33,507 nucleotides of DNA from Anaerolineae bacterium (GCA_022013675.1 JAKLPW010000285.1:1-33507), one strand, 5' to 3'. Positions 1,996 to 22,774 are shown, numbered from the stretch's first letter. The notes: generated by a model from the letters alone, not told the origin. Made by a program: numbers and translations.

Positions 1996-4228
1996 CCTCT
2001 GGCGACAACACAAGGGGATCATTGTCATCCTCTTTCTTTACGTGGTTCTGTCCACGGTCTATAGTGTGGTGACGCCTCTTTTCGAGGCTTCTGATGAGAT
2101 GTGGCACTATCCGTTCGTCAAGCATCTGGCCGATGGGGGCGGTCTGCCGGTACAGGACCCCCAGAATCTGGGCCCTTGGCGGCAGGAGGGTAGTCAGCCT
2201 CCGTTGTACTATGCCCTTGGTGCTCTGGTGAGCGCTTGGGTGGACACCAGCGACGCCGAGGAGCTTATCTGGCGCAATCCACACGCCGATATTGGACTGC
2301 CCATGGCGGATGGGAACATCAACATGGTCATCCACACGGAGAGGGAGGCCTTCCCGTGGTCGGGAACGGCCCTGGCAGCCCATCTGGTGCGGCTGTTCTC
2401 TGTTCTGTTGGGAGCGGTGACGGTCCTAGGCACCTATCTCGCTGCCAGGGAAATCAACCCTGCCAATCAGCCCATGGCCGTGGGGGCGGCGGCATTCACG
2501 GCTTTCAACCCGATGTTCTTGTTTGTCAGTGGCTCCGTCAACAACGATAATCTGGTGGTGGCTCTGGCCTCGTTGTCTTTCTGGTGGATGCTGCGCCTGG
2601 TCCGTGTGGGGCCGTCCACGGGTCGATTCGCGCTTCTGGGCATGCTCTTGGGCCTGGCCATGATCTCAAAGACCAGTGGACTGGGCCTCTTGGCCTTGGC
2701 TGGCCTGACGGTGGTTCTTCTGGCTTATCAGCGACGTTCCTGGCGTGTTCTTTTTACTGGTGGCATCATTATCGGCTGCGTGTCGTTAGCCTTAGGCGGA
2801 TGGTGGTACTTCCGCAACTGGCGACTGTATGGCGATCCCCTGGGTCTCAACACCTTCGTGGCCATCGTCGGTGCTCGCCATCCGCAACCCACTCTGCAGC
2901 AACTCTGGGGCGAGCGAGCAGGTTTCACCATGTCCTACTGGGGCTTCTTTGGGGGCATGAATCTGCCGGCGGAGCCGTGGCTGTACGTTGCCTTCAATAC
3001 TCTGGCAGGTTTGGGCATCGCCGGTCTGGCAGTCATGATCTTGCGAGAGATGGTCTCCCGGCGATGGAAATACGAGCAGTGGGCCAGGTTGCTTGTTGCC
3101 CTGGCCTGGCCGACCATCGTGTTCGTTTCTCTCATCCGTTGGACGCTGATGACCATCGCCACGCAGGGGCGACTCATGTTCTCGGCTATGGCAGCTATCT
3201 CAGTTCTGATCATTTGGGGGCTGACCAGTCTTGTGCCCAGGCGCTGGCGCTGGGTTCCCACCACGTTGGTGATCGTGGTTGCTTTCTTTGCTGCCACGGT
3301 GACGCCCTTCACGACCATCAGCCCGGCCTACGCCAGACACTGTCTCCTCACACCGGAGGCCGTGAGTCACATCGAGCATCGCCTCGATGCCGACTTCGAG
3401 GGACGCATGGCATTGCTGGGATACGATTTGGAGAGCACGGAGATCACTCCCGGAGGGAGTCTGGCGATTACTCTCTACTGGCGTTCGCTGGCCTCTATGT
3501 CAGAGGACTATAGTGTCTTTGTGCATCTCCTGGGAGTGGACGATCTGATTATCGTGCAGCGGGACACGTATCCTGGCCTGGGAAGTTATCCGACCTCCCT
3601 CTGGAAAGTTGGGGATACCATCGAGGACCGATATGTTCTTAGGGTTCCGGAGGCTGTGCTGACACCAAGCGAGGCCACAATCGAGGTGGGCCTGTATAGG
3701 CTGGCGGATGGCTCACGGTTGGGTGTGCTGGACGAGAGCGGAAGTGTGGTGAGTGATAACGTGCGCTTTGCTCGGCTGTCTATCCGGAGAGCCGAGGTGG
3801 GTGGTATTCCTAATCCGGTTCATTTCAACCTCGACAACAAGATGGCTCTGGTGGGATATGATCTGGATCGGACGGCGGCGGCTCCTGGAGAGGCTTTCCA
3901 GGTTACGCTCTATTGGAAGGCTCTGTCGAAAATGGACCTGAACTACAGCGTGTTCACGCAGGTGTTGGGAGAAGGGGACAACATCTGGGCCCAGAAGGAT
4001 AGCTGGCCGCGAGGAGGAGACGCGCCTACCTCCATATGGGAGGTGGGGCAGGTCATTGAGGATACCTACGTTCTGGTCGTGAAGGAGGACGCGCCCGCTG
4101 GGGCGTACGATTTGCAGGTTGGTGTCTATCTGGGGGAGACTGGAGATCGGCTGTCACTGCTAGGTGAGGGGGGGCACGTGCAGGACAATCGCATTCTTCT
4201 AGGGAAGGTGCGCATTGTCAGGCCCTAG
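1988..4228 (+). CDS. DUF2142-like GT-C membrane glycosyltransferase with two C-terminal GYD modules (paralogue 1 of 4)
   Basis: The N-terminal part of about 460 residues is a multi-pass membrane domain. After the first helix comes the exoplasmic loop PLFEASDEMWHYPF with the Asp-Glu pair typical of GT-C enzymes. It is followed by QPPLYYALGAL, SGSVNNDN and TQGRLMFSAMAAIS, which are conserved in the next three genes. The C-terminal part of about 280 residues carries two copies of the GYDL/TLYW/VFVHL module. By analogy with GT-C enzymes it probably moves a sugar from a polyprenyl-phosphate donor on the outer face; this is inferred from fold and context. The start is uncertain: ATG 1988 overlaps the previous stop and matches the paralogues, but GTG 1976 has a better spaced GGAGG (1965-1969), and ATG 1973 and 1907 are also in frame. 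Confidence 0.85.
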   Translation: MTDLWRQHKGIIVILFLYVVLSTVYSVVTPLFEASDEMWHYPFVKHLADGGGLPVQDPQNLGPWRQEGSQPPLYYALGALVSAWVDTSDAEELIWRNPHADIGLPMADGNINMVIHTEREAFPWSGTALAAHLVRLFSVLLGAVTVLGTYLAAREINPANQPMAVGAAAFTAFNPMFLFVSGSVNNDNLVVALASLSFWWMLRLVRVGPSTGRFALLGMLLGLAMISKTSGLGLLALAGLTVVLLAYQRRSWRVLFTGGIIIGCVSLALGGWWYFRNWRLYGDPLGLNTFVAIVGARHPQPTLQQLWGERAGFTMSYWGFFGGMNLPAEPWLYVAFNTLAGLGIAGLAVMILREMVSRRWKYEQWARLLVALAWPTIVFVSLIRWTLMTIATQGRLMFSAMAAISVLIIWGLTSLVPRRWRWVPTTLVIVVAFFAATVTPFTTISPAYARHCLLTPEAVSHIEHRLDADFEGRMALLGYDLESTEITPGGSLAITLYWRSLASMSEDYSVFVHLLGVDDLIIVQRDTYPGLGSYPTSLWKVGDTIEDRYVLRVPEAVLTPSEATIEVGLYRLADGSRLGVLDESGSVVSDNVRFARLSIRRAEVGGIPNPVHFNLDNKMALVGYDLDRTAAAPGEAFQVTLYWKALSKMDLNYSVFTQVLGEGDNIWAQKDSWPRGGDAPTSIWEVGQVIEDTYVLVVKEDAPAGAYDLQVGVYLGETGDRLSLLGEGGHVQDNRILLGKVRIVRP
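3392..4228 (+). repeat. Two tandem GYD modules in paralogue 1
   Basis: Module 1 (about 3392-3796) reads ALLGYDLEST, ITLYWRSL, DYSVFVHLLG, YPTSLWKVGDTIED and VGLYRLADG in that order. Module 2 (3821-4228) reads ALVGYDLDRT, VTLYWKAL, NYSVFTQVLG, APTSIWEVGQVIED and VGVYLGETGDRL. They follow the last membrane helix and the ISPAYAR linker, so they should lie on the exoplasmic side. Confidence 0.85.
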
Positions 4229-4252
4229 ACACGAAGGGGGAATGGGATAGAG

Positions 4253-7102
4253 TTGACAGAACGAGACGGACCGGGCCTGGGCGTGCGCTCCGGACGAAGA
4301 GGGAAGTGGTCCAACTGGGCATTCGTTGCCATTCTCTTCATCTATCTGGCTGTCGGGGCCTGGTACAGTGTGTCTATACCCTTGGGGGAAGCACCCGACG
4401 AACTGGCTCATTTTCGTTATATACGCTACGTTGCTGAGCATGGTCGAGGTCCGCGGACGGCGGAGGAGCGGGATGCCGTGGGCTACAAGGGCCACGAGCC
4501 CCCTCTATACTACGTGGTGTGCTCGGCGGTAACCTCCTGGGTAGATACGTCTACACTGCCTCGTCTGAAGGAGATCGATCCTGATCGCTACCCACGGCAC
4601 AGTATCCCGGACGAGGTGCTGATCCGGGATGCGGTCCTACACACAGAGGATGAGGCCTTTCCCTATCGAGGAGCTGTGCTGGTGTGGCATCTGGCGCGCC
4701 TTCTCTCGCTCCTTATGGGGGTTGGTACGCTCGTAGTCGTCTATCTTCTGGCCAGAGACATATTCCCCCGCCAACCTCATATTCCTGTGGTGGCGGTCGC
4801 GCTTACTGCATTGGCACCTCAGTATGTCTATCTCAGCTCTGTGCTAAACAACGATAATCTGGCCGTACTCTTCTCCTCGCTAGCTCTCTGGGTCATGGTG
4901 CGTATCGCACGTGGTGAAGGGGGTGTACGCGAATACGTGCTGCTGGGGGCTTTGATCGGGCTTGGACGTCTGACCAAGTTCTACACTATCATTTTGCTGC
5001 CTATGGCTCTGCTCGCGATAGCATACGCCGCTTGGCGTTCTCGCTCCTTGCGGAAGCTCTGGACAGGCGCTCTGGTCACTTTGATCGTCTTGTTGCTGGT
5101 CTCTGCATCGTGGCTGTGGGCCATTGAGCCTGACTACGAGGATGCGGTGCCGCAGGGCTGGGGGGCGCAGGCCTATCGTCTCCTGGATGTGGTACACATG
5201 GAGCGATGGTTCAGCTCTTCGGGTCGAGGGAAGGTCGGCGGCGGTGTCATGGCATTGCCCAAGGCACTGCTGAACTTCTGGCGACAAGAGCCCGGGCGTT
5301 GGGCGGTCTTGCTGTTCAAGTCGTATTGGGCCTATTTCGGAGCAGTGACGTTGGAGGCCGGCGCAGGGATCTACCTCTTCTTTTTGGCTATCATGCTCCT
5401 TTGTCTGTGGGGATTGGGTCGCAGGGCAGCGCGTTTCTTGCATGCTCGGTCAGGAGACCTTCGCTCAACAGGGTCAGGAGACCTTCGCTCAACAGGGTCA
5501 GGAGACCTTCGCTCAACGGGTGGCTTTCGCTCAACGGTACAGAAACTCGTCGGGCCTACGGAGATCGGTCTCGGTGTGCTGGCGTTACAGGCGCTTGCCT
5601 ATCTTTTCGTGATGGTGGTCAACTACGGGGTGATGGATCGATTGCCGGGACCTGCTCAGGGGAGGCATCTCTATCCCGCGATTGCTGCCATAAGCATAGT
5701 TCTTGCGCTGGGTTTCAGTGAGGTTTTTCGCTCGAGGCTGAGTCTCTCCACTGGCGCACTGAGTGCCGGGATGTTGGCCGTGTCCATCTGCTGCTTGCCA
5801 ATCTACATCTTGCCTGGTTATGGTGCTCCGTTGCCGGTGCGCACGACAGCGTACCCCGATGTGCAGTATGCCCTGGACGCTGCCTTGGGGCATGATCTGA
5901 CTCTGGTGGGCTATGACATGCCGGAGACGGAGATAGCAGCGGGCAGCATGATTCCCTTGTCTCTCTACTGGCACGGGCTGCGCTCCATGGCCCGAGACTA
6001 TCAGTTCTCGGTTTCCCTCGTGGACGGCAATGGAGCGGGATCTGTGCTGTGGGGCGGGCACCCGGCGGGGGGGCGCTACCCTACGCGTGCGTGGGACCCG
6101 GGCGACTACATCAGGGACTCGTTTGACGTGGTAATCCCCGCTTGTATCGAGCCAGGGCACTATGACCTGGTTGTCACTCTCTGGCCAGGTTTGCCCGGAA
6201 ATGGGGAGCCACTGGGACGCGCAGATCTCACATCTGTGGAGATCGTGGCAGGAACCGAGTGGAATCCTGCGGTGGTCATCGACGCAGACCTGGGTGATGG
6301 CTTGGTTCTTCTTGGGTACGATCTGGTCGGCGCCAGCAGGGACGGCGATGGGCTGATTACCGTCATGTATCGGGAGACCATTGGGCTGACCCTGTACTGG
6401 CGACACGAGGGCACTGAGGGAGACCGCGTGCCCCTCACGGTTACACTCTATAAGGCCGACGGCCAGGAGTGGGGCAGGCAGTCACGGGAGCCTGTCGGAC
6501 AGGGGCCTTTCTACTGCGCGCGTTATCTTTTCACTGTCGGCCCTCGCACGCCGGCTGGCCACTACCGGGTCAAACTCAGGGCCTTGGGCCTGGGCAAGGT
6601 CGAATTCGATATACCTGTACAGGTAATCAACCGCGAGAGGATCTTTGTACAGCCTCCAACTCAGAAGGCGAGCGGTGTGACATTCGGCAACTGCATTGTG
6701 TTGGAGGGATATGATGTGGGGGAGCGTCCAACGGGATCAGATGAGAAGATAGGGCTAACTGCCGGTGATGAGTTGGGGCTGACTCTCTACTGGCGCGCTC
6801 TCTGTCCCATCAAGAAGAACTACACCGTGTTCGTACATCTTATCGATGCGAACGAGGAGATTCTTGCTCAAGACGACAAGCTCCCCGGCCTTGATTATGC
6901 TACCATATTCTGGACTGAGGGGGAGGTAGTGCAAGATCAGTACCGCTTGAAGACGGATATCCACCTGCCGCCAGGATCATGTCGCGTCGAAGTGGGACTC
7001 TATCGTGCTCTAGATGGGCAGCGTCTGCCGATCCGCGATGCTTCGGGGATAGCGGTTGGTGATCGGTGGATCCTTGCGCAGGTACAGGTGGTGGAGCGCT
7101 AG
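4253..7102 (+). CDS. DUF2142-like GT-C membrane glycosyltransferase with three C-terminal GYD modules (paralogue 2 of 4)
   Basis: This 949-residue protein has the same plan as its neighbours: a basic N-terminus, one helix, the loop PLGEAPDELAHFRYIRYVAEHG with the Asp-Glu pair, EPPLYYV, SSVLNNDN, and a late AQGRHLYPAIAAIS. It is longer than its paralogues for two reasons. It has three C-terminal modules instead of two, and a soluble loop near residues 395-425 contains the octapeptide SGDLRSTG three times in a row, encoded by a 24-bp tandem repeat. Module 2 is the most degenerate in the window and lacks VFVHL. The start is TTG 4253, 24 bases after the previous stop, behind a purine-rich stretch; GTG 4283 is an alternative. 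It probably acts as a polyprenyl-phosphate-sugar dependent transferase; substrate unknown. Confidence 0.85.
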   Translation: MTERDGPGLGVRSGRRGKWSNWAFVAILFIYLAVGAWYSVSIPLGEAPDELAHFRYIRYVAEHGRGPRTAEERDAVGYKGHEPPLYYVVCSAVTSWVDTSTLPRLKEIDPDRYPRHSIPDEVLIRDAVLHTEDEAFPYRGAVLVWHLARLLSLLMGVGTLVVVYLLARDIFPRQPHIPVVAVALTALAPQYVYLSSVLNNDNLAVLFSSLALWVMVRIARGEGGVREYVLLGALIGLGRLTKFYTIILLPMALLAIAYAAWRSRSLRKLWTGALVTLIVLLLVSASWLWAIEPDYEDAVPQGWGAQAYRLLDVVHMERWFSSSGRGKVGGGVMALPKALLNFWRQEPGRWAVLLFKSYWAYFGAVTLEAGAGIYLFFLAIMLLCLWGLGRRAARFLHARSGDLRSTGSGDLRSTGSGDLRSTGGFRSTVQKLVGPTEIGLGVLALQALAYLFVMVVNYGVMDRLPGPAQGRHLYPAIAAISIVLALGFSEVFRSRLSLSTGALSAGMLAVSICCLPIYILPGYGAPLPVRTTAYPDVQYALDAALGHDLTLVGYDMPETEIAAGSMIPLSLYWHGLRSMARDYQFSVSLVDGNGAGSVLWGGHPAGGRYPTRAWDPGDYIRDSFDVVIPACIEPGHYDLVVTLWPGLPGNGEPLGRADLTSVEIVAGTEWNPAVVIDADLGDGLVLLGYDLVGASRDGDGLITVMYRETIGLTLYWRHEGTEGDRVPLTVTLYKADGQEWGRQSREPVGQGPFYCARYLFTVGPRTPAGHYRVKLRALGLGKVEFDIPVQVINRERIFVQPPTQKASGVTFGNCIVLEGYDVGERPTGSDEKIGLTAGDELGLTLYWRALCPIKKNYTVFVHLIDANEEILAQDDKLPGLDYATIFWTEGEVVQDQYRLKTDIHLPPGSCRVEVGLYRALDGQRLPIRDASGIAVGDRWILAQVQVVER
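5450..5521 (+). repeat. Three-copy 24-bp in-frame tandem repeat (minisatellite)
   Basis: The unit occurs at 5450-5473, 5474-5497 and 5498-5521. The copies are identical apart from the last bases of copy 3. Each encodes the octapeptide SGDLRSTG. A partial fourth copy (TTCGCTCAAC) follows at about 5525. Each unit boundary also forms a short GGTC-AGGA-GACC hairpin. The length is a multiple of three, so copy-number change would keep the frame. The repeat lies in a hydrophilic loop of the GT-C protein. Confidence 0.9.
5879..7102 (+). repeat. Three tandem GYD modules in paralogue 2
   Basis: Module 1 (about 5879-6252) has TLVGYDMPET, LSLYWHGL, DYQFSVSLVDGNG and YPTRAWDPGDYIRD. Module 2 (about 6281-6640) has VLLGYDLVGA and IGLTLYWRHE but no VFVHL and a changed middle. 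Module 3 (6677-7102) has IVLEGYDVGE, LTLYWRAL, NYTVFVHLIDANE, FWTEGEVVQD and VGLYRALDGQRLPI. Module 2 looks like a decayed or repurposed copy. Confidence 0.8.
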
Positions 7103-9334
7103 ATGTTGCGACGACATTGGGGCATTGCGGTTCTTCTGGGTGTATTCCTGATCACTGGCGCAATCTATGGTGTTGTGACCCCTGTTTTTGAGGCTCCTGA
7201 CGAACTCTGGCATTATGCCTATGCTGTGCACCTGGCCGACAACGGCAGGCTACCTGTGCAATCCCTGGAGGAAGATCAACCGTGGAGGCAAGAGGGCAGC
7301 CAACCTCCTCTCTACTACGCGCTGGGGGCGCTGCTGCTTCGGCCTCTGGATCTAGGGGGAGCCGAGAACATCGCAACCTACAACCCTCACGTTGAGCTGG
7401 GAGTACCTTCGGCGCTAGCGAACGTCAACATGGTGCTTCATGGCGACGGTGAGGGGTACCCATATCAGGGACATATCTTGGGGGTGCACCTGCTGAGGAT
7501 TCTCTCTATCCTGTTGGGCGCCGGCACGGTTTGGGTGACGTACAGACTTACCCTGGAGGTCTTCCCTGACGGGGAGTGGTTGGCGGTCGGAGCGGCAGCC
7601 ATCAATGCCTTCACTCCTCAGTTCCTTTTCATCGGAAGTTCCGTCAATAATGATAATGCGATTACGTTTCTTGCCTCCTTGGCTTTGTGGCTGTTGGTTC
7701 GGCTGGCCAAGGGGGATCGGAGGGTAAAGAGCCTGATCTGGTTAGGACTAATTCTCGGACTGGCCGGCTTGGCTAAGCTGAGTGGCCTCGGTCTTTGGGC
7801 TCTCGTTGGTATCACATTCCTGTGGTTGGCGTGGAAAGAACGCTCGTTGCGAGTGGTGGTCTGGCAGGCGGGTATCGTGTTTGCAGTGGCGGTGCTCATA
7901 TCCGGTTGGTGGTATGTACGCAATTGGATGCTCTATGGCGACCCTACGGGCGTGAATGTGATGCTACAGATCGTAGGCCGGAGGGCGCACGCACCGGATA
8001 TCTGGGGACTCCTTTCTGAGATCCATGGATTGGGAGTATCCTACTGGGCCATCTTCGGATGGTTCAATATCCTGGCAGACAAGTGGATATACGTCGTCTT
8101 CGAGATTCTTTTCGGGGCGGCAGTTCTGGGCTGGGGAATCGCGCTCGCTCGCTGCCTGTCCCAACGTAGGATCAGTATTGACATTCAATTTGCCCTACCG
8201 ATAACGTGGAGTGGCATCGTGCTCTTTTCCCTGGCTCGCTGGACTCGCATGACGCCGGCCACTCAGGGACGATTGCTGTTTCCTGCTATCGGGGCGATTT
8301 CCATGATGCTGGCCTGGGGTATAATACATTGGGTTCCATCTCGATGGCATCGTTTGATGGTCGGTCTGGTGGCCCTTTTCTTGTGGGGAGTGGCATTGGC
8401 GCAGCCGTTCTCTGTTGTTGCGCCAGCTTATGATCGGCCCAATCTTCTCGGACTCCATCAGATACCTTCGGGTGCTCGTGACGTGAAGGCGGATTACGGT
8501 GATCGCATTCGCTTGGTGGCTTGTGAATTCGAACGGTCGGCCGTACACCCGGGGGACGTACTCAAGGTGACGCTGTATTGGCAGGCCCTGACGGGAATGG
8601 ATGAGAACTACAGTGTCTTCATCCATCTGGTGGGGCCGGATGGGCAACCTATGGGGCAGGCTGACAGCTATCCATGTGGTGGAATGTACCCTACGCGCCA
8701 GTGGAGGCCGGGGGAGATCGTGAAAGATGTCCACTGGGTGCCGGTTGAGGCGGATGTCGAGGCACCGCTTGCGGCCGATGTCGAGGTGGGTCTGTATGTC
8801 CTCTCTGAGTACAGCAATCTGTCAATCACCGATGCGCTAGGGCGATCAGTAGGACGCGTTGTCGCCGGACGGATCAAAGTGGCCCCCTCTACTATGCCAG
8901 CCTATGATATCCTTCATAGGATGCATTACGAGCTGGGGGGCCAGATTGCGCTGATAGGGTATGAGATTACAGATCCCAACGTCGAGACGGGGGAGTGTCT
9001 GCGGGTTGATCTTTATTGGCAGTCGTTGGCACCGGCCTCGGCCGATTACACGGTCTTTGTGCATCTGTTGGATTCGGATGATCGCCAGTGGAGCCAGGGG
9101 GACAAGCGTCCTCAGAGGGGGTATTCGACTCTGCTCTGGGAGGTGGGGGAGATTGTTCTGGACAGGTGCGAGATTCCTGTGCCTTCGGATTTATCGCCCG
9201 GGAAGTATCGCATATCTGTAGGGATGTACAGGGCCGACAACATGCAGCGCTTGCCTGTTTCTCATGATGGTCAGCCAGTGTCCATGAACCGCATCTGGCT
9301 CGACGAACCGGTGTGTATTCTGGGGGGAGAGTAG
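7103..9334 (+). CDS. DUF2142-like GT-C membrane glycosyltransferase with two C-terminal GYD modules (paralogue 3 of 4)
   Basis: The ATG begins on the base after the previous stop, so translation is probably coupled. The 743-residue product opens with a helix and the loop PVFEAPDELWHYAYAVHLADNG, then QPPLYYALGALL, SSVNNDN, a set of membrane helices, and TQGRLLFPAIGAIS. Its closest relative in the window by motif is paralogue 1: both share WRQEGSQPPLYYALGAL and the loop that follows it, with VNMVLHGDGEGYPYQG here against INMVIHTEREAFPWSG there. The C-terminal third is two GYD modules after a VVAPAYDRP linker. The likely role is extracytoplasmic sugar transfer from a lipid-linked donor. This is inferred from the GT-C architecture; the acceptor is unknown. 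Confidence 0.87.
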   Translation: MLRRHWGIAVLLGVFLITGAIYGVVTPVFEAPDELWHYAYAVHLADNGRLPVQSLEEDQPWRQEGSQPPLYYALGALLLRPLDLGGAENIATYNPHVELGVPSALANVNMVLHGDGEGYPYQGHILGVHLLRILSILLGAGTVWVTYRLTLEVFPDGEWLAVGAAAINAFTPQFLFIGSSVNNDNAITFLASLALWLLVRLAKGDRRVKSLIWLGLILGLAGLAKLSGLGLWALVGITFLWLAWKERSLRVVVWQAGIVFAVAVLISGWWYVRNWMLYGDPTGVNVMLQIVGRRAHAPDIWGLLSEIHGLGVSYWAIFGWFNILADKWIYVVFEILFGAAVLGWGIALARCLSQRRISIDIQFALPITWSGIVLFSLARWTRMTPATQGRLLFPAIGAISMMLAWGIIHWVPSRWHRLMVGLVALFLWGVALAQPFSVVAPAYDRPNLLGLHQIPSGARDVKADYGDRIRLVACEFERSAVHPGDVLKVTLYWQALTGMDENYSVFIHLVGPDGQPMGQADSYPCGGMYPTRQWRPGEIVKDVHWVPVEADVEAPLAADVEVGLYVLSEYSNLSITDALGRSVGRVVAGRIKVAPSTMPAYDILHRMHYELGGQIALIGYEITDPNVETGECLRVDLYWQSLAPASADYTVFVHLLDSDDRQWSQGDKRPQRGYSTLLWEVGEIVLDRCEIPVPSDLSPGKYRISVGMYRADNMQRLPVSHDGQPVSMNRIWLDEPVCILGGE
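8483..9334 (+). repeat. Two tandem GYD modules in paralogue 3
   Basis: Module 1 (about 8483-8884) has RLVACEFERS in place of GYD, then VTLYWQAL, NYSVFIHLVGPDG, YPTRQWRPGEIVKD and VGLYVLSEY. Module 2 (8921-9334) has ALIGYEITDP, VDLYWQSL, DYTVFVHLLDSDD, LWEVGEIVLD and VGMYRADNMQRLPV. Confidence 0.83.
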
Positions 9335-9339
9335 CAGTC

Positions 9340-11619
9340 GTGGAGAAGAGGTCCCAGCCAAGGAAGAGGGCGAACTGCATATCCAGACTCGCAGAAAGTC
9401 GCTGGGGGATCGTCTGTGTGTTGGTGCTCTTCGTGATCCTGGGACTGGCGTACGGTGTTGCGACGCCTGTCTTTGAGACACCGGATGAACCCTGGCACTT
9501 CCTCTACGCCAAGCGCCTGGCAGATGGGGATGGCTTGCCTCCTCTGACGTTTTCCGACGATCCCTGGGAACAGGGAGAGGCCCACCAGCCGCCCCTTTAC
9601 TATGCCCTGTCTGCTTTGGCTATATCCTGGGTAGATACCGGTGATTGGCAGGTGTGGATGCAGCGCAATCCACATGCCGCCCCAGGCGCTCCCGGTTCTT
9701 TTGGCAATAAGAATGTCGTTCTACATGGTATTCCTGGTACAGAATCCTGGGCTGGGACCGGCCTGGCGGTGCATCTGCTTCGTCTACTCTCGCTTGCCCT
9801 GAGCGCACTGACGGTATGGGTGACCCATGAGCTTATGAAGGAGCTGTTCCCCGACGATCCGGTGATTGCCTTGTCAGGGGCTGTGATAATTGCCTTTAAC
9901 CCCCAGTTCTTGTTCATCAGCGCGGCCGTTAACAACGATAGCCTCATCACTCTGCTTTGCTCCGTGGCCTTGTTGGTGATTATCAGAGGGATGCGTAAGG
10001 GATTATCGCTGCGATGGGCCACGGGCCTGGGATTGGTTATCGGGGCCGCAATGCTAACCAAGCTGGGCGGCTTTGGGCTTCTGGTGCCGGCCTGGTTGTC
10101 CATTGCCTGGCTGGCGTGGCGGGAGCGTCGCTGGCAAACCTTTGTGAGGTATGCCACAATCGTCGCGTGCATCGCCATGGCTGTATCGGCCTGGTGGTAT
10201 GTACGAAACCTCGTCTTGTTCCGCGACCCTTTGGGCATGCGTGCTCTGGTGGCCGCCTTCCGCACACACGATCGGACACCGACTTTGCTGGAACTACTGC
10301 GTACTACCGGCGACGCTGAGATCTCTTTCTGGGGAGTCTTCGGCTGGATGAACGTCCTCGCAGGAGAGTGGTTCTATGTGGTAGTCCGTGTTCTGGGGAG
10401 GCTTTCTATCCTTGGAGTAGGGATTGCGCTAGTTCGCTGGTGGCGTCGGGGCCGGGTCGTGAGTGAGCGGGTCGCCAAACTACTCGTCCTGGGAGCGTGG
10501 ATGCTGGTCGTGCTGTCGAGCCTGATTAGTTGGAGCAGAGAGGTAACAGGACCTCAGGGGAGACTGCTTTTTCCAGCGATTACCTCTGTAGCTGCGTTGC
10601 TGATCATGGGTCTTTCGGCTTTGTGGCCTGACAGATCTCGAAGAATCCCAGTGGTGGCAGCGCCGCTCTTCCTTCTGGTAGCGGCAGCGATCATGCCCTT
10701 CGCGTACATTTCACCGCCGTACGAAGTGCCTCCCATTATCGCGGCTGCCGATCTGCCCGCCGATCTCCAACAACTAAACATAACCTTCGATAATGGTATT
10801 CGACTGGTTGGCTATCGAGTTGGTCAGGAGAGTGTAGTCCCTGGGGAGAAGCTTGATGTGTACCTATACTGGCAGGCATTGGATTCTCTGGATGACAACT
10901 ACTCTGTGTTCGTGCACCTTTTTGGCCGGGGGAGGGAGTCATTGGGTCAGGTAGACAGCTATCCTGGGAAGGGGAATTACCCTACCGGCGCCTGGGAGCC
11001 GGACGGGATGATCTGTGACCACTATCGTGTAGAGGTGGCAGAGGATGCTCTAGTGCCGACAGCCGGGCGCATTGAGGTGGGACTGTACCGGTTGCCGGGA
11101 TACGAGAATGTCCCGGCGACAGACGGTCAGGGATGCGATATCGGGACTGCTCCCGACATCGGGGGTGTCAGAATTGGCCCTTCCCAACCGGCCCCGTGTC
11201 AGCCGCCGTGTGTGACTGCTGTTGTCTTTGGCGATCGGGTAGAGTTAATGGGGTACCATCTTTCGCATGATGCGCTGATTAGTGGGGAGCAGCTATCCGT
11301 GACCCTGTACTGGCGCGTGACGCAGGTGTTTGAGCAGGACTATACTGTTTTCGTGCACCTTGTCGGAGAGGATGGTTTGGCAGGACAGGCTGACAGCCAG
11401 CCGTTGCAAGGAGAGTATCCTACTTCGTTCTGGATGCTAGGGGAGACCTTGAAGGACGAACACCTTCTGGAAGTGTACCCTGATGCCTCTCCTGGGCAAT
11501 ACCGCCTGGAAGTGGGGTTGTATTTACTGGAAGACGGAGAGCGACTGGTGGCCAGTGGCGAAGGCGATCATGGACAAGACTACGCGGTTCTAGGACCGGT
11601 GGAGGTACTCGGCCCTTGA
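9340..11619 (+). CDS. DUF2142-like GT-C membrane glycosyltransferase with two C-terminal GYD modules (paralogue 4 of 4)
   Basis: The start is taken as GTG 9340, because GGGGAGAG lies about 8 bases upstream; GTG 9313 would overlap the previous gene by 22 bases and has no such site. The 759-residue protein has a basic N-terminus (EKRSQPRKR), helix 1, the loop PVFETPDEPWHFLYAKRLADGDG with the conserved Asp-Glu, QPPLYYALSAL, AAVNNDS, and PQGRLLFPAITSV. It then has the linker ISPPYEVP and two C-terminal GYD modules. It is the last of the four-gene tandem array. Probably a polyprenyl-phosphate-sugar dependent transferase on the outer membrane face. Divergence between paralogues suggests different donors or acceptors, but the sequence does not say which. 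Confidence 0.87.
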   Translation: MEKRSQPRKRANCISRLAESRWGIVCVLVLFVILGLAYGVATPVFETPDEPWHFLYAKRLADGDGLPPLTFSDDPWEQGEAHQPPLYYALSALAISWVDTGDWQVWMQRNPHAAPGAPGSFGNKNVVLHGIPGTESWAGTGLAVHLLRLLSLALSALTVWVTHELMKELFPDDPVIALSGAVIIAFNPQFLFISAAVNNDSLITLLCSVALLVIIRGMRKGLSLRWATGLGLVIGAAMLTKLGGFGLLVPAWLSIAWLAWRERRWQTFVRYATIVACIAMAVSAWWYVRNLVLFRDPLGMRALVAAFRTHDRTPTLLELLRTTGDAEISFWGVFGWMNVLAGEWFYVVVRVLGRLSILGVGIALVRWWRRGRVVSERVAKLLVLGAWMLVVLSSLISWSREVTGPQGRLLFPAITSVAALLIMGLSALWPDRSRRIPVVAAPLFLLVAAAIMPFAYISPPYEVPPIIAAADLPADLQQLNITFDNGIRLVGYRVGQESVVPGEKLDVYLYWQALDSLDDNYSVFVHLFGRGRESLGQVDSYPGKGNYPTGAWEPDGMICDHYRVEVAEDALVPTAGRIEVGLYRLPGYENVPATDGQGCDIGTAPDIGGVRIGPSQPAPCQPPCVTAVVFGDRVELMGYHLSHDALISGEQLSVTLYWRVTQVFEQDYTVFVHLVGEDGLAGQADSQPLQGEYPTSFWMLGETLKDEHLLEVYPDASPGQYRLEVGLYLLEDGERLVASGEGDHGQDYAVLGPVEVLGP
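10777..11619 (+). repeat. Two tandem GYD modules in paralogue 4
   Basis: Module 1 (about 10777-11178) has RLVGYRVGQE, VYLYWQAL, NYSVFVHLFG, YPTGAWEPDGMICD and VGLYRLPGYE. Module 2 (11215-11619) has ELMGYHLSHD, VTLYWRVT, DYTVFVHLVGEDG, YPTSFWMLGETLKD and VGLYLLEDGERLV. Confidence 0.85.
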
Positions 11620-14051
11620 ACGATCGCGGGTGTATCGAGCGAAGCAGTAATGATGAAGCTGGTCGACGTTGGGTCACCAGTGTCGTGTTGCTGGGCTTGA
11701 TCCTGGTTTCCTTTGGGCTGCGCATCTGGCGCATCGAGGCCAAGAGCATCTGGTGGGACGAGAGCTTGAGCCTGTATCGAGCCCAGCATGATCTGCCCTA
11801 TGTGCTATCGAACCGCATTGATTTTCCGGGAGCCGAGACCACGGACTTGCATCCGCCTCTCTATTTCGTTCTTTTGCACTTCTTCATTCGGTTGGCGGGA
11901 GAGAGTGATCTGGCACTGCGCTTTCCTTCTGTCTGTTGGGCCACTGCGTTGGTGCCTCTTCTCTACATCGTTGGAAAGCGCTGGTGGGGAAGAGGAGTAG
12001 GCCTGTGGGCGGCGGGACTCGGGGCCGTATCGCCTTTCTATCTCTGGTACGCCCAAGAAGCGCGGATGTACACCATGGTTACCTGCCTGGGCCTACTTTC
12101 CGCCTACGTTCTGGGGAGGGCTTTGGAAGGCGGAAGACGTTCATGGTATATTACGTTCGTGATCCTGGCGGCAGCCATGTTGTACACGCACTACTTCGCC
12201 TTTCTCCTGTTGGCATTCGAGGGGCTGGCGTGGCTGCTGGGGACACTGCGAAATCGTCGTTGGCGAAGTATCTGGGTTTTTGCCCTTGTCGGAGCTATGT
12301 GTCTGCCTCTTCTGGGTTATGCTGTCTATCGACTGGCCTCTGGGCCGGAGATGGGCCGTGTCTATGTGCCTCTCTTCTCAATCCTAGGGGATAGTCTAAA
12401 CTCCTTTGCTCTGGGCCTGTCCGTGCGAATGTGGCAGGTATACCCTCTCGACTTACTTTTCCTTGTGATGTATGTTCTCGGGGTGTGGTCCTCTTCTGCC
12501 GATCACGAGTGGCAGGGCACACAGAGGCGGTTCTTTCTGCTGGGATACGTCTTCGTGCCAATTCTGGGACTCTACCTCTCTTCGCTGGTGAAGCCCTTCT
12601 ACATGGGAAGCCGCTACGTGATTATTGCGAGCCCTGGTTTCTATCTGGGCGTGGCGGCAGGACTGAATTTCCTGTTGCACCACAGGGGGAGGTTTGTCGC
12701 GGTTTTATCGGTGCTCTGTTCATTGTTGCTATTTGCCGGGATTGGATATTCGACATACAATTATTTCTTTGATGAGCACTACGGCACAAAAGAAGATCAC
12801 CGCTCGTCCGCGCGGTACGTCGAGGCACATGGGCGACCAGGTGACCTGGTAGTTGTGGACGCTCCAGAGAATATGCCCGCCTTCCGGCATTACTACGGAG
12901 GGGAATTGCCCGCCATCGGTCTTCCAGGCGTGGCTATGAGTGGCCGTTCTGATCCTGTGAGCATCTCCAGAGACTTGGAGCAGGAAGCAGGGGATTACCG
13001 GCGTATCTGGTTGGTGCAGTGCCGAACCATGTTCTCTGATCCCGATGAGTTGGTGCACAGATGGCTTGAGGAACATACCTTCAAGCTGGATGAAGTGAAT
13101 TTTCGCAGCTATGGTTCTGATGCCCAGGTGTATCTCTACCAGCCCGAGTCTCCGGTTACGGATCAATTGCCTGCCATGCAGTGTTCGGAGATCGCTGAGT
13201 TCGGGGGGGAACTGACCCTTCTGGGCTATGACCTTCCCTCAATGCCTTTGGCAGTGCATGAATCCGCGGTCATGACGCTCTACTGGCGTGCCAAGACGGA
13301 GTCATCGGCAGAGTACAAGGTCTCGCTGCAATTGGTGGACGATGAAGGAACACTCTGGGCGCAGCGAGATCGGGTGCCGTTCTACTTCTTTCCAACCACT
13401 CTCTGGCCGGTAGGTCAGATTATTAGGCAAGAGCACGAGCTCACTATACCGCCGGGCACCCCCCCTGGGGAGTATCGCTTGGAGCTAAGGGTGTATGGGC
13501 GCGAGAGTGGCGATTTGCTGCCGGTGACGGTCGAGCCATGCGTATCTTCGGAGACGACGGTGCTGACCTTGGCAGAAGTGGTCGTTGCTCGCCCAACGAA
13601 GAGTGTGTCGGCTGAGGGGTTGGTGCTCGCTCATCGCACTGATGCGACCTACGGAGGCAGATTGAGGCTTCTGGGGTATAATATTTCTAGGCGTAAGGCA
13701 TACCCGGGGGAGAGGCTGAAACTCGATCTGCACTGGCTGGCCCTTCGGAACATGGATGGTGACTATGGTCTGGATCTGTGGTTGTTGGATGAACGGGGCC
13801 GGCTGGCGGGTGAACTGAAGAGCTGGCCATCGAGGCCTGCGTATCCTACTTCCCAGTGGCACCCGGGGGAAATCGTACGAGGACAGCCAACCCTGGAGTT
13901 GCCAGTCGCTTTAGAACCAGGCGAGTATCGGTTGCGGTTGCTGGTGCGTGACCCTGGCACGGGTTGGGCGTTGCCTTTCTGGCGATCCGGATTCCCGTGG
14001 TCCGAGGTGGGACTGGATTTGGGGTCTATTGACGTACGTGAACCGAAGTAG
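11616..14051 (+). CDS. PMT/GT39-type GT-C membrane glycosyltransferase with two C-terminal GYD modules
   Basis: TTG 11616 overlaps the previous stop by four bases (TTGA), with GGAGG 10 bases upstream. The 811-residue product differs from the four preceding proteins in its membrane part. It has SIWWDESLSLYRAQH after helix 1 (Asp-Glu in the first loop), then LHPPLYFVLLHFFIRL, ALRFPSVCWATALVPLLY, and PFYLWYAQEARMYTMVT. These are hallmarks of the PMT_2/GT39 family (dolichyl-phosphate-mannose-type transferases), here bacterial. After about 400 residues comes a soluble segment containing PGDLVVVDAPENMPAFRHYY, and then two GYD modules. It should use a polyprenyl-phosphate sugar as donor at the outer face. 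Having the same modules on an only distantly related GT-C domain suggests the modules were shuffled or co-recruited. Confidence 0.88.
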   Translation: MNDRGCIERSSNDEAGRRWVTSVVLLGLILVSFGLRIWRIEAKSIWWDESLSLYRAQHDLPYVLSNRIDFPGAETTDLHPPLYFVLLHFFIRLAGESDLALRFPSVCWATALVPLLYIVGKRWWGRGVGLWAAGLGAVSPFYLWYAQEARMYTMVTCLGLLSAYVLGRALEGGRRSWYITFVILAAAMLYTHYFAFLLLAFEGLAWLLGTLRNRRWRSIWVFALVGAMCLPLLGYAVYRLASGPEMGRVYVPLFSILGDSLNSFALGLSVRMWQVYPLDLLFLVMYVLGVWSSSADHEWQGTQRRFFLLGYVFVPILGLYLSSLVKPFYMGSRYVIIASPGFYLGVAAGLNFLLHHRGRFVAVLSVLCSLLLFAGIGYSTYNYFFDEHYGTKEDHRSSARYVEAHGRPGDLVVVDAPENMPAFRHYYGGELPAIGLPGVAMSGRSDPVSISRDLEQEAGDYRRIWLVQCRTMFSDPDELVHRWLEEHTFKLDEVNFRSYGSDAQVYLYQPESPVTDQLPAMQCSEIAEFGGELTLLGYDLPSMPLAVHESAVMTLYWRAKTESSAEYKVSLQLVDDEGTLWAQRDRVPFYFFPTTLWPVGQIIRQEHELTIPPGTPPGEYRLELRVYGRESGDLLPVTVEPCVSSETTVLTLAEVVVARPTKSVSAEGLVLAHRTDATYGGRLRLLGYNISRRKAYPGERLKLDLHWLALRNMDGDYGLDLWLLDERGRLAGELKSWPSRPAYPTSQWHPGEIVRGQPTLELPVALEPGEYRLRLLVRDPGTGWALPFWRSGFPWSEVGLDLGSIDVREPK
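13188..14051 (+). repeat. Two tandem GYD modules in the first PMT-type protein
   Basis: Module 1 (about 13188-13596) has TLLGYDLPSM, MTLYWRAK, EYKVSLQLVDDEG, FPTTLWPVGQIIRQ and LRVYGRESGDLLPV. Module 2 (13638-14051) has RLLGYNISRR, LDLHWLAL, DYGLDLWLLDERG, YPTSQWHPGEIVRG and LEPGEYRLRLLV. Both have lost the VFVHL wording but keep the order of the other motifs. Confidence 0.8.
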
Positions 14052-14105
14052 GGAAGGGCGGCTCGGTGCAGCGTGCAAGACCGGAGAAGTCCATCAGGAG
14101 ATCAT

Positions 14106-15092: not shown

Positions 15093-15161
15093 ACGGGAAG
15101 GAAGACTTCGGGAGTCTGGCAAAACTTGAATTGGAGCGAGGAGTTACAGGTGGAGTGCAAC

Positions 15162-16823: not shown

Positions 16824-16834
16824 GGTGCAATTGA

Positions 16835-17794
16835 ATGGGTGATCGCGAGAAGCAAATTGACATATCTGTCGTGATTCCGGTGTACAATGAGGAGAGCAAT
16901 CTCCTGGAACTTCACCGGCAACTCAACGATGTCCTGAGTAATATGGGACGCAGCTACGAAATTATCGCCGTGGATGATGGCAGCAGCGACGATAGCTTTG
17001 AGGTCTTGCGCAGACTCCATGGGCAGGATGAACACCTGGTGGCGGTGCGATTTCGTCGCAACTTCGGGCAGACCGCGGCTTTCTCCGCGGGTTTCGATCT
17101 GGCCCGTGGCCAAATCGTCATTACGATGGACGCCGATTTGCAGAATGATCCCGTTGACATTCCTCACCTGATTGAGATGATGGAAGAGGGCTACGACGTT
17201 GTGAGTGGCTGGCGCAAGGACCGCAAGGACCCCTTTGTCAGTCGCCGGTTGCCTTCTATCATGGCCAATCGGCTGATCTCCTTTGTGACGGGCGTGAAGC
17301 TTCATGACTATGGTTGCTCTTTGAAAGCCTATCGGGGAGACGTGGTGAAGAACCTTCATCTCTACGGGGAGATGCATCGCTTCATTCCAGCGCTGGCCAA
17401 CTGGATGGGCGTGAGTGTTACGGAGATTGCAGTTCGTCATCATCCCAGAAGACACGGCAAATCGAAGTACGGCATCTCTCGCACGCTGAAGGTGATTCTC
17501 GATCTGCTGACGGTGCGGTTCTTACTGAGTTTCTCTGCCCGGCCTATGCAGCTCTTTGGTCTTCTGGGCATGGGATCCTTTGGAGTTGGATTCCTGATCG
17601 GGCTCTATCTTACGGTGCTCAAGGTCATCTATGGACAGAGTATCAGCAATCGCCCGTTGCTTCTGTTGGGGGTGTTGATGCTCGTGGCTGGGATACAGCT
17701 AACCACGATGGGCCTGCTGGCTGAGCTAATCGTGCGTACGTATCATGAGACTCAGGGCAAAGCGATCTACGTGATACGTGAAGTCCTGGACTGA
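16835..17794 (+). CDS. DPM1/GtrB-like polyprenyl-phosphate glycosyltransferase (GT2 with two C-terminal helices)
   Basis: The 319-residue protein has the full GT2 pattern: ISVVIPVYNEESNLLEL, IIAVDDGSSDDS, RNFGQTAAFSAGFDLARG and TMDADLQNDP (DAD at 99-101, metal and donor binding). It then has DYGCSLKAYRGDV and a HHPRRHGKSKYG loop near 202-212 that is typical of polyprenyl-phosphate transferases. Two membrane helices follow (about 238-262 and 274-300), as in GtrB, ArnC and DPM1-type enzymes. It should transfer a sugar from a nucleotide donor to polyprenyl phosphate on the cytoplasmic face, giving the donor used by the GT-C proteins around it. ATG 16835 is 11 bases after the preceding stop with a GAGG upstream. 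It is flanked on both sides by phosphodiesterase paralogues. Confidence 0.93.
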   Translation: MGDREKQIDISVVIPVYNEESNLLELHRQLNDVLSNMGRSYEIIAVDDGSSDDSFEVLRRLHGQDEHLVAVRFRRNFGQTAAFSAGFDLARGQIVITMDADLQNDPVDIPHLIEMMEEGYDVVSGWRKDRKDPFVSRRLPSIMANRLISFVTGVKLHDYGCSLKAYRGDVVKNLHLYGEMHRFIPALANWMGVSVTEIAVRHHPRRHGKSKYGISRTLKVILDLLTVRFLLSFSARPMQLFGLLGMGSFGVGFLIGLYLTVLKVIYGQSISNRPLLLLGVLMLVAGIQLTTMGLLAELIVRTYHETQGKAIYVIREVLD

Positions 17795-17816
17795 CCGAGG
17801 AAGTGAGGCACTGGGA

Positions 17817-19463: not shown

Positions 19464-19480
19464 GCTGCGGAGATGAGTTC

Positions 19481-22400
19481 ATGCGGAAATTGACTCGCTG
19501 GGTCACAAATCACCGGATTATCACCGTGCTGCTCTTTATTGGGGCTTTGCTGCCCCGGGTCTTGCAGCCTGGCCGTTTCATCACCTGGGACGAACTGAAG
19601 TGGGTTTTCCGTTCCATAGGGTTTCTCGACGCTCTGAGCAGGGGCGACCTGGCCGGTACTTTCCAGGCCGGACATCCAGGGGTGACAACTATGTGGTGCG
19701 GAGTGATGGGAGTAGGGCTACGTTGTCTGATAGAAGGGGAGCCCGTTCGACAGGCGTTGGCAACGGTAGCGTCCTTGTCGTCTCTCAGTCCCTTCGATGC
19801 TCAGGCAATGAAGACACTGGCCCCATTCTTGGTGTATGGGCGACTGGTGGTAAGTACTGCTACGGCATTATGCGTAGCGGGGATGTATGTCATGGCACGT
19901 CACTTCCTTAAGGGATGGGTGGCTTTCCTAGGAGTGGCCCTGGTTGCCCTGGATCCATTCTATCTGGCTCATTCCCGCGTGCTCCACGTGGATGCCCTGG
20001 CGGCTAGCTTCATGACGCTTTCCGTGTTGGGGATGCTGGCACATCTGGCCAATTGCCGTTCGCGACGTTACCTCTTTGTCTCCGGATGTTCAGCCGGCAT
20101 GGCGTTGTTGAGCAAGTCGCCGGCGATCTTCCTTCTTCCTATGGTGGTCCTGGCTTTCATTACCGCCGCGCTGGTCTCCCGGAGGGTTCGCGCCCGGGGC
20201 ACCAAAACCTTGCTGATGGATCTGACCATCTGGGGCATATGTGTGGTGGTCCTGTTCCTTCTGCTTTTCCCTGCCATGTGGGTTAGTCCGCTAGACACGT
20301 TGATGGGAATCGGAGAGACCGGCGTTCACCATGCCCTAACGCCCCACGAGACGATCTTCTATCGTGGCACCATAGGTGAAGACCCCGGACCTCTGTTCTA
20401 CCCTCAGGCCGTGGCCTTTCGTCTTACTCCCTTGATCGTGATGGGGCTGCTGCTCTCGATACCACTGCTTTTCGTGCACAAACCTCGCCAGGCGGAGCGA
20501 CGCAGTCTGTTTACTCTGTTCCTCTTCGTGGTTTTCTTCATCGCATTCATGACCTTCGGCGCGAGGAAATTCGATCGCTATTTGCTTCCCATCTTTCCCG
20601 TACTGGATCTCATAGCGGCGGTCGGCTATGGTGGTCTCCTGTTACTGATTGTGCGTCTTCTGGAGCGCATTCTAGGGACGGAACGGAAGGGATGGAAGGC
20701 ATGGTGGCGCTGGATGCCCGTTGCCCTGGGCGTTGCGGCCGTGCTGACCGTTGCGGGCCGAACTTCGCTTCCGTATGCGCCCTATTATCTTTCCTACTAT
20801 AATCCCTTGCTTGGAGGGGGGGAAGCTGCTGCCGAGGAGATGCCGGTAGGATGGGGCGAGGGCGTTGATCTAGCTGCCGACTATCTGAATGGCGTGGGAG
20901 ATGCCCCGGAACTGAAAGTGGCCACCTGGGCCGTAGCTGGGCTGGCTCCTCTCTTTGATGGCCAGGTGCTACCGCTCAGTGAGGAGAATGTGCCCATTGC
21001 GGACTACATCCTTCTGTATTTGGTGGATGTGCAGGCGGATGGACCATTCGTTCAAGAGCTGACCAAGCAGAAGCCAAGCTATGTGGCCCGTCTACATGGC
21101 ATCGACTATGCTTGGGTGTATCCCAATCTTCACTACGTGGAACTGGTGGACCACATTGAGGCCAACGCCGGGCCTCAGGACGTCATTATTGTGAATACTG
21201 CTTCGGCCTTCACTAAGCACTATCGCGGCGCTCTCCCCGTGCACATCGTGGAGGGAGATACCGAAGCCCAGGTGGCAGAGAAGCTGGCCCAGCTAACACA
21301 AGGGGCAGAGTACATATGGTACCTGGAGTACGGCGACGCTTCTCCCACATCCACCGGCTGGCTTAAGCGTCAGCTCGACGTACACTGCCTCAAGCTCGAT
21401 CGGCGCCCCTTTGCATACGGAAAGCTCGTGCGTTATGCCGTCCCCCCTGGGGTTTCCTTCAGCGTGGTGGGCATCCGCAAGCCGGCGGACGTGGATTTCG
21501 AGCGGGTGCTGCAACTTAGTGGCTACGGACTTAGCCGAGCCGTGCTGGAGTATCGCAAGAAACTGGGCATTGCCCTACAATGGGACGTGATGGGTGCGAT
21601 GGATCATGACTATCATATCTTCATTCACCTTGTCGATGAGAATGGTGTGATATGGGGGCAGTGGGACGAGCGGCTCTTGGATGGAGCTGGGAGGCCGACC
21701 AGCCAATGGGAAGAAGGCCAAAGGGTGGTGGGCAGCTATGTGTTCTCGGCACGCGCGGGTACTCCGGCCGGAAGGTATCGTGTGAAGGTAGGTGTCTATC
21801 GGTGGGACAATCTGGAGCGACTTCGAATCATGGACGATGATGATGTACCCGTCGGTGCAGAACATACTCTATCGTCTGTCTATGTTGTCACTCCTACATA
21901 CCCTCCGCAGCTTACTGATCTCAGCATCCAGCATCTTGTGCAATACGACTTTGGCGACCAGATTCGGCTGCTAGGTGCGAACGTGGGTGAGGGCAGCGTG
22001 CGGTCTGGCGCTACCCTCCACTTTGAGTTGTTCTGGCAATCTTTAGCGCCTACGGAAACAGACTATCAGCTTCTGATACAATTGAGGGACGAGGACGGGC
22101 ATGTCTTGGGAGCAGAGCGAGTGCCTCCGAGTAGAGCAAGCTACGCCACCAGCTCGTGGCAGGTAGGGGAAATCACCAGATACCCGCAGCAGATAACCAT
22201 CTCGCCTGAGGCTGTAGGCGGAGACTATGTCTTGACGGTCAATCTGATCGATCCAAGCACTGGGCAACCGATGGCCTCGGAAGATGCTCCCTTGGCAGTT
22301 GTTACAGTCAAGGCGCGGGAGAGGCTTTTCGATGTTCCCGTCATTGCTTATCCTGTTCCTGCCAGTTTTGGTGGCGATATTGAGCTCCTGGGATACGATC

Positions 22401-22774
22401 TGCAGGAGGAGAGCGTTGCGCCGAAAGGTGTTCTTCATCTGACGCTCTATTGGAGGACCCTGCGGCCGACGGATATCCCCTATACGGTGTTCACTCACTT
22501 ACTGGATGGGGAGGGCAAGGTGAGGGGCCAGCGGGACAGCGTGCCAGTGGATGGGACGCGCCCGACCACGGGTTGGGCTGTTGGTGAGATCATAGTGGAT
22601 CGTTACGAGATCTCTGTGGATGGGGATACTCCTGAAGGCACATGCCAGATCGAGATTGGCCTATACGACCCTGCGAGCGGGGACCGTATGCCTGCCTTCG
22701 ATGCGGAGGGCCAGCGTCTGGAGTACGATCGCGTGCTACTGCCACATGCCATCCAGATCATACCTGGTGCCTAG
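19481..22774 (+). CDS. Large PMT/GT39-type GT-C membrane glycosyltransferase with three C-terminal GYD modules
   Basis: ATG 19481 follows the previous stop by 17 bases, with GGAG about 9 bases upstream. This is the largest gene here (1097 residues). The membrane part has FITWDELKWVFRSIGFL in the first loop (Asp-Glu pair), then FQAGHPGVTTMWCG, DPFYLAHSRVLHVDALAASFMTL and LSKSPAIFLLPM. GARKFDRYLLPIFPVLDL and YYLSYYNPLLGGG follow. These fit the bacterial PMT_2/GT39 family. After a soluble segment (about residues 460-670) come three GYD modules. It is the last gene of the + strand run; 156 bases follow before the GntR gene, which has its own promoter. Predicted to transfer a sugar from polyprenyl phosphate at the outer face. 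Confidence 0.88.
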   Translation: MRKLTRWVTNHRIITVLLFIGALLPRVLQPGRFITWDELKWVFRSIGFLDALSRGDLAGTFQAGHPGVTTMWCGVMGVGLRCLIEGEPVRQALATVASLSSLSPFDAQAMKTLAPFLVYGRLVVSTATALCVAGMYVMARHFLKGWVAFLGVALVALDPFYLAHSRVLHVDALAASFMTLSVLGMLAHLANCRSRRYLFVSGCSAGMALLSKSPAIFLLPMVVLAFITAALVSRRVRARGTKTLLMDLTIWGICVVVLFLLLFPAMWVSPLDTLMGIGETGVHHALTPHETIFYRGTIGEDPGPLFYPQAVAFRLTPLIVMGLLLSIPLLFVHKPRQAERRSLFTLFLFVVFFIAFMTFGARKFDRYLLPIFPVLDLIAAVGYGGLLLLIVRLLERILGTERKGWKAWWRWMPVALGVAAVLTVAGRTSLPYAPYYLSYYNPLLGGGEAAAEEMPVGWGEGVDLAADYLNGVGDAPELKVATWAVAGLAPLFDGQVLPLSEENVPIADYILLYLVDVQADGPFVQELTKQKPSYVARLHGIDYAWVYPNLHYVELVDHIEANAGPQDVIIVNTASAFTKHYRGALPVHIVEGDTEAQVAEKLAQLTQGAEYIWYLEYGDASPTSTGWLKRQLDVHCLKLDRRPFAYGKLVRYAVPPGVSFSVVGIRKPADVDFERVLQLSGYGLSRAVLEYRKKLGIALQWDVMGAMDHDYHIFIHLVDENGVIWGQWDERLLDGAGRPTSQWEEGQRVVGSYVFSARAGTPAGRYRVKVGVYRWDNLERLRIMDDDDVPVGAEHTLSSVYVVTPTYPPQLTDLSIQHLVQYDFGDQIRLLGANVGEGSVRSGATLHFELFWQSLAPTETDYQLLIQLRDEDGHVLGAERVPPSRASYATSSWQVGEITRYPQQITISPEAVGGDYVLTVNLIDPSTGQPMASEDAPLAVVTVKARERLFDVPVIAYPVPASFGGDIELLGYDLQEESVAPKGVLHLTLYWRTLRPTDIPYTVFTHLLDGEGKVRGQRDSVPVDGTRPTTGWAVGEIIVDRYEISVDGDTPEGTCQIEIGLYDPASGDRMPAFDAEGQRLEYDRVLLPHAIQIIPGA
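21488..22774 (+). repeat. Three tandem GYD modules in the second PMT-type protein
   Basis: Module 1 (about 21488-21895) has QLSGYGLSRA, IALQWDVM, DYHIFIHLVDENG, RPTSQWEEGQRVVG and VGVYRWDNLERL. Module 2 (about 21938-22318) has RLLGANVGEG, FELFWQSL, DYQLLIQLRDEDG and YATSSWQVGEITRY. Module 3 (22358-22774) has ELLGYDLQEE, LTLYWRTL, PYTVFTHLLDGEG, RPTTGWAVGEIIVD and IGLYDPASGDRMPA. Confidence 0.83.

Follow-up and report, generated by a model that had tools for sequence, protein, structure and literature searches.

Tandem beta-sandwich modules resembling the Wzt carbohydrate-binding domain on Chloroflexota GT-C glycosyltransferases: candidate acceptor-glycan docking domains

Introduction

Acceptor-holding C-terminal domains are known in GT-C glycosyltransferases: EmbC has a C-terminal sugar-binding domain that binds the acceptor glycan (PMC3044687), and the C-terminal domain of the GT136 enzyme ORF12 binds its O-polysaccharide acceptor (PMC11127046). 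The usual chain consists of a GT2 enzyme making the polyprenyl-phosphate sugar, a flippase and the GT-C enzyme (review, PMC8035078). A further described sugar-binding domain is that of the O-antigen exporter Wzt; in A. aeolicus it holds its sugar by Asn313, His350, Trp362 and other residues (PMC9445017). Here we analyse a module that is repeated 14 times on six GT-C enzymes encoded in a 33,507-nucleotide stretch of DNA from an Anaerolineae bacterium (GCA_022013675.1, JAKLPW010000285.1:1-33507; the window), and we suggest that it is a Wzt-like domain which probably docks acceptor glycans.

Results

The six host open reading frames (ORFs) hold the 14 copies between window positions 3383 and 22771, with 2, 3, 2, 2, 2 and 3 copies per protein. 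This count, already given in the initial annotation, stands, since every copy was recovered by profiles built without its own host protein, at domain E-values from 9e-6 to 6e-41 (Z=1000). The weakest recovery (E 9e-6) was that of P0002_m2, the degenerate second copy of host 2 (6278-6670), which is without the YPTxxW loop. The segments, excised after translation of the ORFs, measure 131-151 residues each with linkers included, and their pairwise identity averages 29% (range 19-41%). The motifs do follow one another in the order that had been described, but they are looser than the idealised forms: [YFRA][PAS]TxxW and WxxGE-type motifs occur in 13/14 copies, the LYW strand in 11/14, the FGxx..GYD-type start in 9/14, and the Y[ST]VFVHL-type and VGLY-type motifs in 8/14 each. 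Invariant in the 14-row alignment are only two leucines and the tryptophan of the LYW strand, while the TxxWxxG loop is nearly so.

A beta-sandwich had been proposed from the residue pattern, and AlphaFold2 confidently predicts one for a single module, copy 4.2 (predicted local distance difference test (pLDDT) 94.4, predicted TM-score (pTM) 0.87), the model being that of an independent fold. To which known domains is it related? The view that no named family covers it has held up in Pfam and NCBIfam: no copy reached the Pfam cut-off, the search with all 14 modules giving scattered weak matches to assorted beta-sandwich families; NCBIfam had nothing in the module regions of the hosts; and a search of PDB sequences with the module returned nothing below E 0.15. 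A viral structure library gave weak, unnamed matches only, and we found no description of the module in the open-licence literature. The idea of a BsuPI-type fold, on the other hand, had to be dropped. The BsuPI domain (PF12690) has no match in 41 genomes, 40 of which carry the module, no module of the window matches it in Pfam, and it does not appear among the top 50 Foldseek matches.

Searched against the PDB with Foldseek, the single-module model mainly matches NPC2 and the carbohydrate-binding domain of Wzt. Several Wzt entries recur, with TM-scores (TMq) of 0.52-0.64, and one Wzt structure was solved with 3-O-methyl-mannose. For a profile comparison, Wzt_C domains were collected from related genomes; the module aligns with them over 88 columns at a probability of 76% and a score of 34.0, compared to 12.1 ± 2.1 (maximum 17.2) in 50 column shuffles, and under other alignment settings it scores 24.5 compared to 3.2 ± 2.4 in 60 shuffles. 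From the 14 window copies alone the probability is 38%. CARDB (PF07705) and NPCBM_assoc (PF10633), considered as relatives and rejected, reached hhalign probabilities of 5% and 1% with scores far under that of Wzt_C; for DUF4832 the related genomes held too few sequences for a profile. Among the families tested, the Wzt carbohydrate-binding domain is the nearest known domain. When the two are aligned, Asn313 of Wzt falls on Asp61 of the module and His350 on Tyr104, both conserved, and Trp362 is not placed. The relation is distant, at the level of a superfamily and not of membership: tested against Wzt_C (PF14524) in Pfam, one of the 14 modules has any match (E 0.14, below the gathering score), and because the Pfam cut-off is not reached and the fusion partner differs we do not count the module as a Wzt_C member. 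Genome G000 (contig C203, L156) also encodes a genuine carbohydrate-binding domain of Wzt type (PF14524, E 6e-33). By predicted structure and profile, then, the module is a previously unclassified beta-sandwich domain family that is like the Wzt carbohydrate-binding domain.

The hosts, all on the forward strand, had been called six GT-C glycosyltransferases, and indeed 6/6 pass the Pfam cut-off for PMT_2. Their division into DUF2142-like and PMT-like types fared less well, since the DUF2142 cut-off is passed by P0003 only and not by the other hosts that had been labelled DUF2142-like. Host 1 (P0001, 773 amino acids, 1907..4228) carries module 1.1 with a linker (3383..3817) and terminal module 1.2 (3818..4225). 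Host 2 (P0002, 949 amino acids, 4253..7102) carries modules 2.1 (5873..6277), 2.2, the degenerate copy (6278..6670), and terminal 2.3 (6671..7099); its membrane part also contains a 24-base tandem repeat (window 5453-5536) encoding about three GDLRSTGS units and part of a further one. Modules 3.1 (8483..8920) and terminal 3.2 (8921..9331) belong to host 3 (P0003, 743 amino acids, 7103..9334), and modules 4.1 (10774..11214) and terminal 4.2 (11215..11616) to host 4 (P0004, 768 amino acids, 9313..11619). Host 5 (P0005, 811 amino acids, 11616..14051), of PMT_2 type, has modules 5.1 (13188..13637) and terminal 5.2 (13638..14048), and host 6 (P0006, 1097 amino acids, 19481..22774), of PMT/PMT_2 type, has modules 6.1 (21485..21937), 6.2 (21938..22354) and terminal 6.3 (22355..22771).

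Modelled over its full length with AlphaFold2 (pLDDT 89.6, pTM 0.82), host 3 has a helical membrane part of GT-C fold up to residue 443, followed by two beta domains, and Foldseek matches it to the GT-C enzymes Pmt4, ArnT and STT3 and also to RbmA. Since the protein has a basic N-terminus, about 11 transmembrane helices and an acidic first loop of 97 residues with Asp-Glu, its C-terminus is predicted to lie outside the membrane, and from its position and the model the beta-sandwich, C-terminal to the last transmembrane helix, would lie there as well. The match to RbmA, a biofilm matrix protein of tandem beta-sandwiches, raises the question of whether the modules serve in protein-protein contact or matrix anchoring, fastening the enzymes to a surface layer or the wall. 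RbmA is the top PDB match of the full-length model and, weakly, the top match by sequence (E 0.15), and a PASTA kinase, described below, bears the module too; the TM-scores to RbmA are low, however (0.34-0.36 by target length). Matrix anchoring often runs through polysaccharide, so that this explanation overlaps with glycan binding, and as a separate account we consider it improbable.

How widespread is the module? In the window's own genome we count 25 copies at E<=0.001, distributed over 12 ORFs, each of them GT-C-like. Across the class it is present in 40/41 genomes (own included), with 2-74 copies each, and across the phylum in 76/201 Chloroflexota genomes, where the copy counts are lower bounds that go up to at least about 20 per genome. 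When about 85,000 genomes were scanned, each of the best 77 loci bore the name of Chloroflexota or of one of its classes. The module was not found in viral contigs, nor on plasmids except for a marginal match (E=0.1) on the Leptolinea plasmid AP024711.1 (33105-33470), under a gene annotated as beta-galactosidase.

Among 58 hosts from the best 77 loci we find PMT_2 (43), PMT (20), DUF2142 (9), DUF2079 (3) and a few STT3, TMEM260 and GT87. Because this sample had been picked by similarity, three further genomes were mapped, yielding 54 ORFs with 88 modules, and most of these ORFs match GT-C families. Altogether the hosts comprise GT-C enzymes of PMT/PMT_2, DUF2142, DUF2079, PTPS_related, STT3, TMEM260 and GT87 type, to which a PASTA kinase and a putative lipoprotein are added; this range bears out the proposal that the module is a portable unit; no ABC ATPase appears among the hosts that have a family match. 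GT-C hosts carry 1-3 tandem copies, and the module is nearly always the last element, with a median of 2 residues beyond the last copy in 117 hosts. In nearly all of the 54 ORFs about 20 residues at most follow the last module, but in genome G010 four ORFs (L223:1056-3257, L226:860-3202, L226:3102-5399 and L228:2005-4467) have 134-146 residues more, perhaps a further diverged copy.

The kinase, also from genome G010 (L220:2480-4396), is a PknB-type Ser/Thr kinase with two PASTA domains and one terminal module, possibly a sensor of envelope glycan. The putative lipoprotein (genome G032, L242:2751-3812) combines a lipoprotein-like start (LFVSAC) with two modules and no enzyme domain. These two hosts place the module outside the membrane and, together with the topology, they strongly indicate that its position is extracytoplasmic.

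Copies at different places in the tandem arrays differ. Our statistics on copy evolution come from small samples and ignore phylogeny; with this in mind, in 34 multi-copy hosts from four genomes the distances among proximal modules correlate with the distances among the catalytic parts (Mantel 0.37, p=0.0005), whereas for terminal modules there is hardly any correlation (Mantel 0.13, p=0.08). A first Mantel test, on the best 77 loci, was biased by the search pattern and was set aside, the test being repeated on the four genomes. Terminal copies are more alike than proximal ones (29% vs 24% identity). His48 is retained in 42/65 terminal or single copies compared to 9/44 internal ones (p=6e-6, uncorrected), and Asp61, Asp82 and Tyr104 are likewise commoner in terminal or single copies (p=0.0025, 0.016 and 0.038, uncorrected). 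Recent tandem duplication is unsupported, since proximal-terminal identity within a protein (26%) nearly equals that between proteins (25%). Homogenisation of the copies within a genome was not seen either, terminal copies being 31% identical in the same genome and 30% in different ones.

These differences bear directly on the main rival explanation, namely that the modules are passive spacers or braces, which lend the GT-C enzyme stability or determine how far above the membrane it stands, and do not bind sugar. Copy number does vary from 1 to 3, conserved residues are often lost from internal copies, and P0002_m2 has no conserved loop at all. Yet particular residues are retained in the terminal copies: where a host has several modules, the last one has W74 in 37/37 cases and P64 in 35/35, even if part of this set may serve the structure. 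Moreover, one would expect passive spacers to diverge and other domains to take their place, while here a single family is found on many GT-C types. We regard a purely passive role as unlikely.

Discussion

Our analysis suggests that the modules are, probably, acceptor-glycan docking modules that act in the manner known from EmbC and GT136, whose C-terminal domains bind sugar. Of the mechanisms considered this is the best supported, because acceptor-holding domains at this position have precedents in GT-C enzymes and because genes of GT2 and LPG_synthase_TM type lie among the GT-C genes of the window. For sugar binding itself we infer a role with the Wzt carbohydrate-binding domain as the lead and the two GT-C enzymes as precedents.

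Four ORFs, from which the module is absent, lie between hosts 5 and 6 (14073-19463). One encodes an LPG_synthase_TM protein (PF03706; 14073..15092, forward strand), a candidate lipid-sugar flippase, and another a GT2 enzyme of polyprenyl-phosphate sugar synthase type (ArnC/PgfS-like by Pfam and NCBIfam; 16835..17794, forward strand), a candidate maker of the donor. The GT2 gene is flanked by two PF01663 proteins of the type I phosphodiesterase/alkaline-phosphatase superfamily (window 15126-16823 and 17778-19463), a homologue of which is present in two related loci, L050 and L113. In Azospirillum a homologue of the GT2 enzyme (53% identity) adjoins the same kind of LPG_synthase_TM protein, and homologues of both are present in 3/77 related module loci.

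How might such a system work? In the cytoplasm the GT2 enzyme would load a sugar onto polyprenyl phosphate, and a flippase, perhaps the LPG_synthase_TM protein, would flip the loaded lipid outward, where a GT-C host could transfer the sugar to a glycan of the envelope. Meanwhile the C-terminal modules would bind this acceptor glycan and keep it near the active-site cleft. Since co-variation and conservation differ between the copies, we infer a division of labour in which the terminal module may read a trait that many acceptors share, and the module nearest the membrane, fitted to its own catalytic part, may have a positioning or selective role.

Several observations weigh against acceptor docking and the Wzt kinship behind it. 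The beta-sandwich is a common scaffold, and because Wzt_C itself resembles the CARDB profile (45% probability), part of the Wzt_C signal may be generic. At the columns that match the six sugar-contacting residues of Wzt, conservation is only weakly enriched (p=0.075), which leaves the alignment of Asn313 and His350 with conserved residues a lead at most; a subset of three columns gives p=0.033, but it was picked post hoc and we disregard it. Homologues of the GT2 enzyme occur near 10/77, and of the candidate flippase near 5/77, related loci. The domain of GT136 ORF12, moreover, is dispensable for activity in the assays used (PMC11127046). Finally, for the single module NPC2, of the ML fold, has better Foldseek E-values (best 1.8e-5) than Wzt, so that by analogy the modules might bind a lipid or the lipid-linked donor instead of the acceptor glycan. 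The top NPC2 matches, however, have TM-scores of about 0.48 (bovine NPC2 0.60), as against up to 0.64 for Wzt domains, and ArnT binds its donor lipid with the membrane part (PMC11127046); lipid binding seems to us very improbable.

If acceptor docking is correct, one may ask how far it extends. There might be a general acceptor-docking system of Chloroflexota envelope glycosylation, in which the dozens of GT-C enzymes of a cell share a terminal reader of one common glycan feature, each having in addition a private proximal module that determines where it acts, and in which the same reader on the PASTA kinase couples signalling to the condition of that glycan coat; we regard this wider scheme as conceivable but doubtful. 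More immediately, Pfam and NCBIfam lack an entry for a domain that reaches 74 copies in a single genome and runs through a class whose members are mostly uncultured; once the family has a name, hundreds of glycosyltransferases would gain an annotation for their C-terminal part. Because the terminal module is small and, by prediction, compact and soluble, what it binds can be tested directly, and the split between proximal and terminal copies amounts to a testable prediction on how GT-C enzymes choose their acceptors.

Among known systems, V. cholerae RbmA (PDB 4kkp) shares the tandem beta-sandwich domains, but it is a biofilm matrix protein without a membrane enzyme and its TM-score is low. 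EmbC and AftD (PMC3044687) are, like the hosts described here, GT-C enzymes with C-terminal extracytoplasmic sugar-binding domains; the EmbC domain, by contrast, is lectin-like and has a second, differently folded subdomain, and EmbC is absent from the top 50 Foldseek matches of both the single module and the host 3 model. GT136 ORF12 (PMC11127046) is a GT-C enzyme that ends in an extracytoplasmic domain, Ig-like and beta-rich, which binds the acceptor polysaccharide; this domain is present in a single copy, whereas the Chloroflexota module occurs in multiple copies on many GT-C types. The C-terminal domain of Wzt (PF14524; A. aeolicus PDB 6o14, 8dky; PMC9445017) is likewise a beta-sandwich of similar length, with a co-linear profile alignment over 88-129 columns, but in that alignment it is without the longer loop with YPTxxW that the module possesses. 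Above all the setting differs, since the Wzt domain sits in the cytosol on an ABC ATPase, while the module is carried in tandem by GT-C enzymes and, as predicted, outside the membrane.

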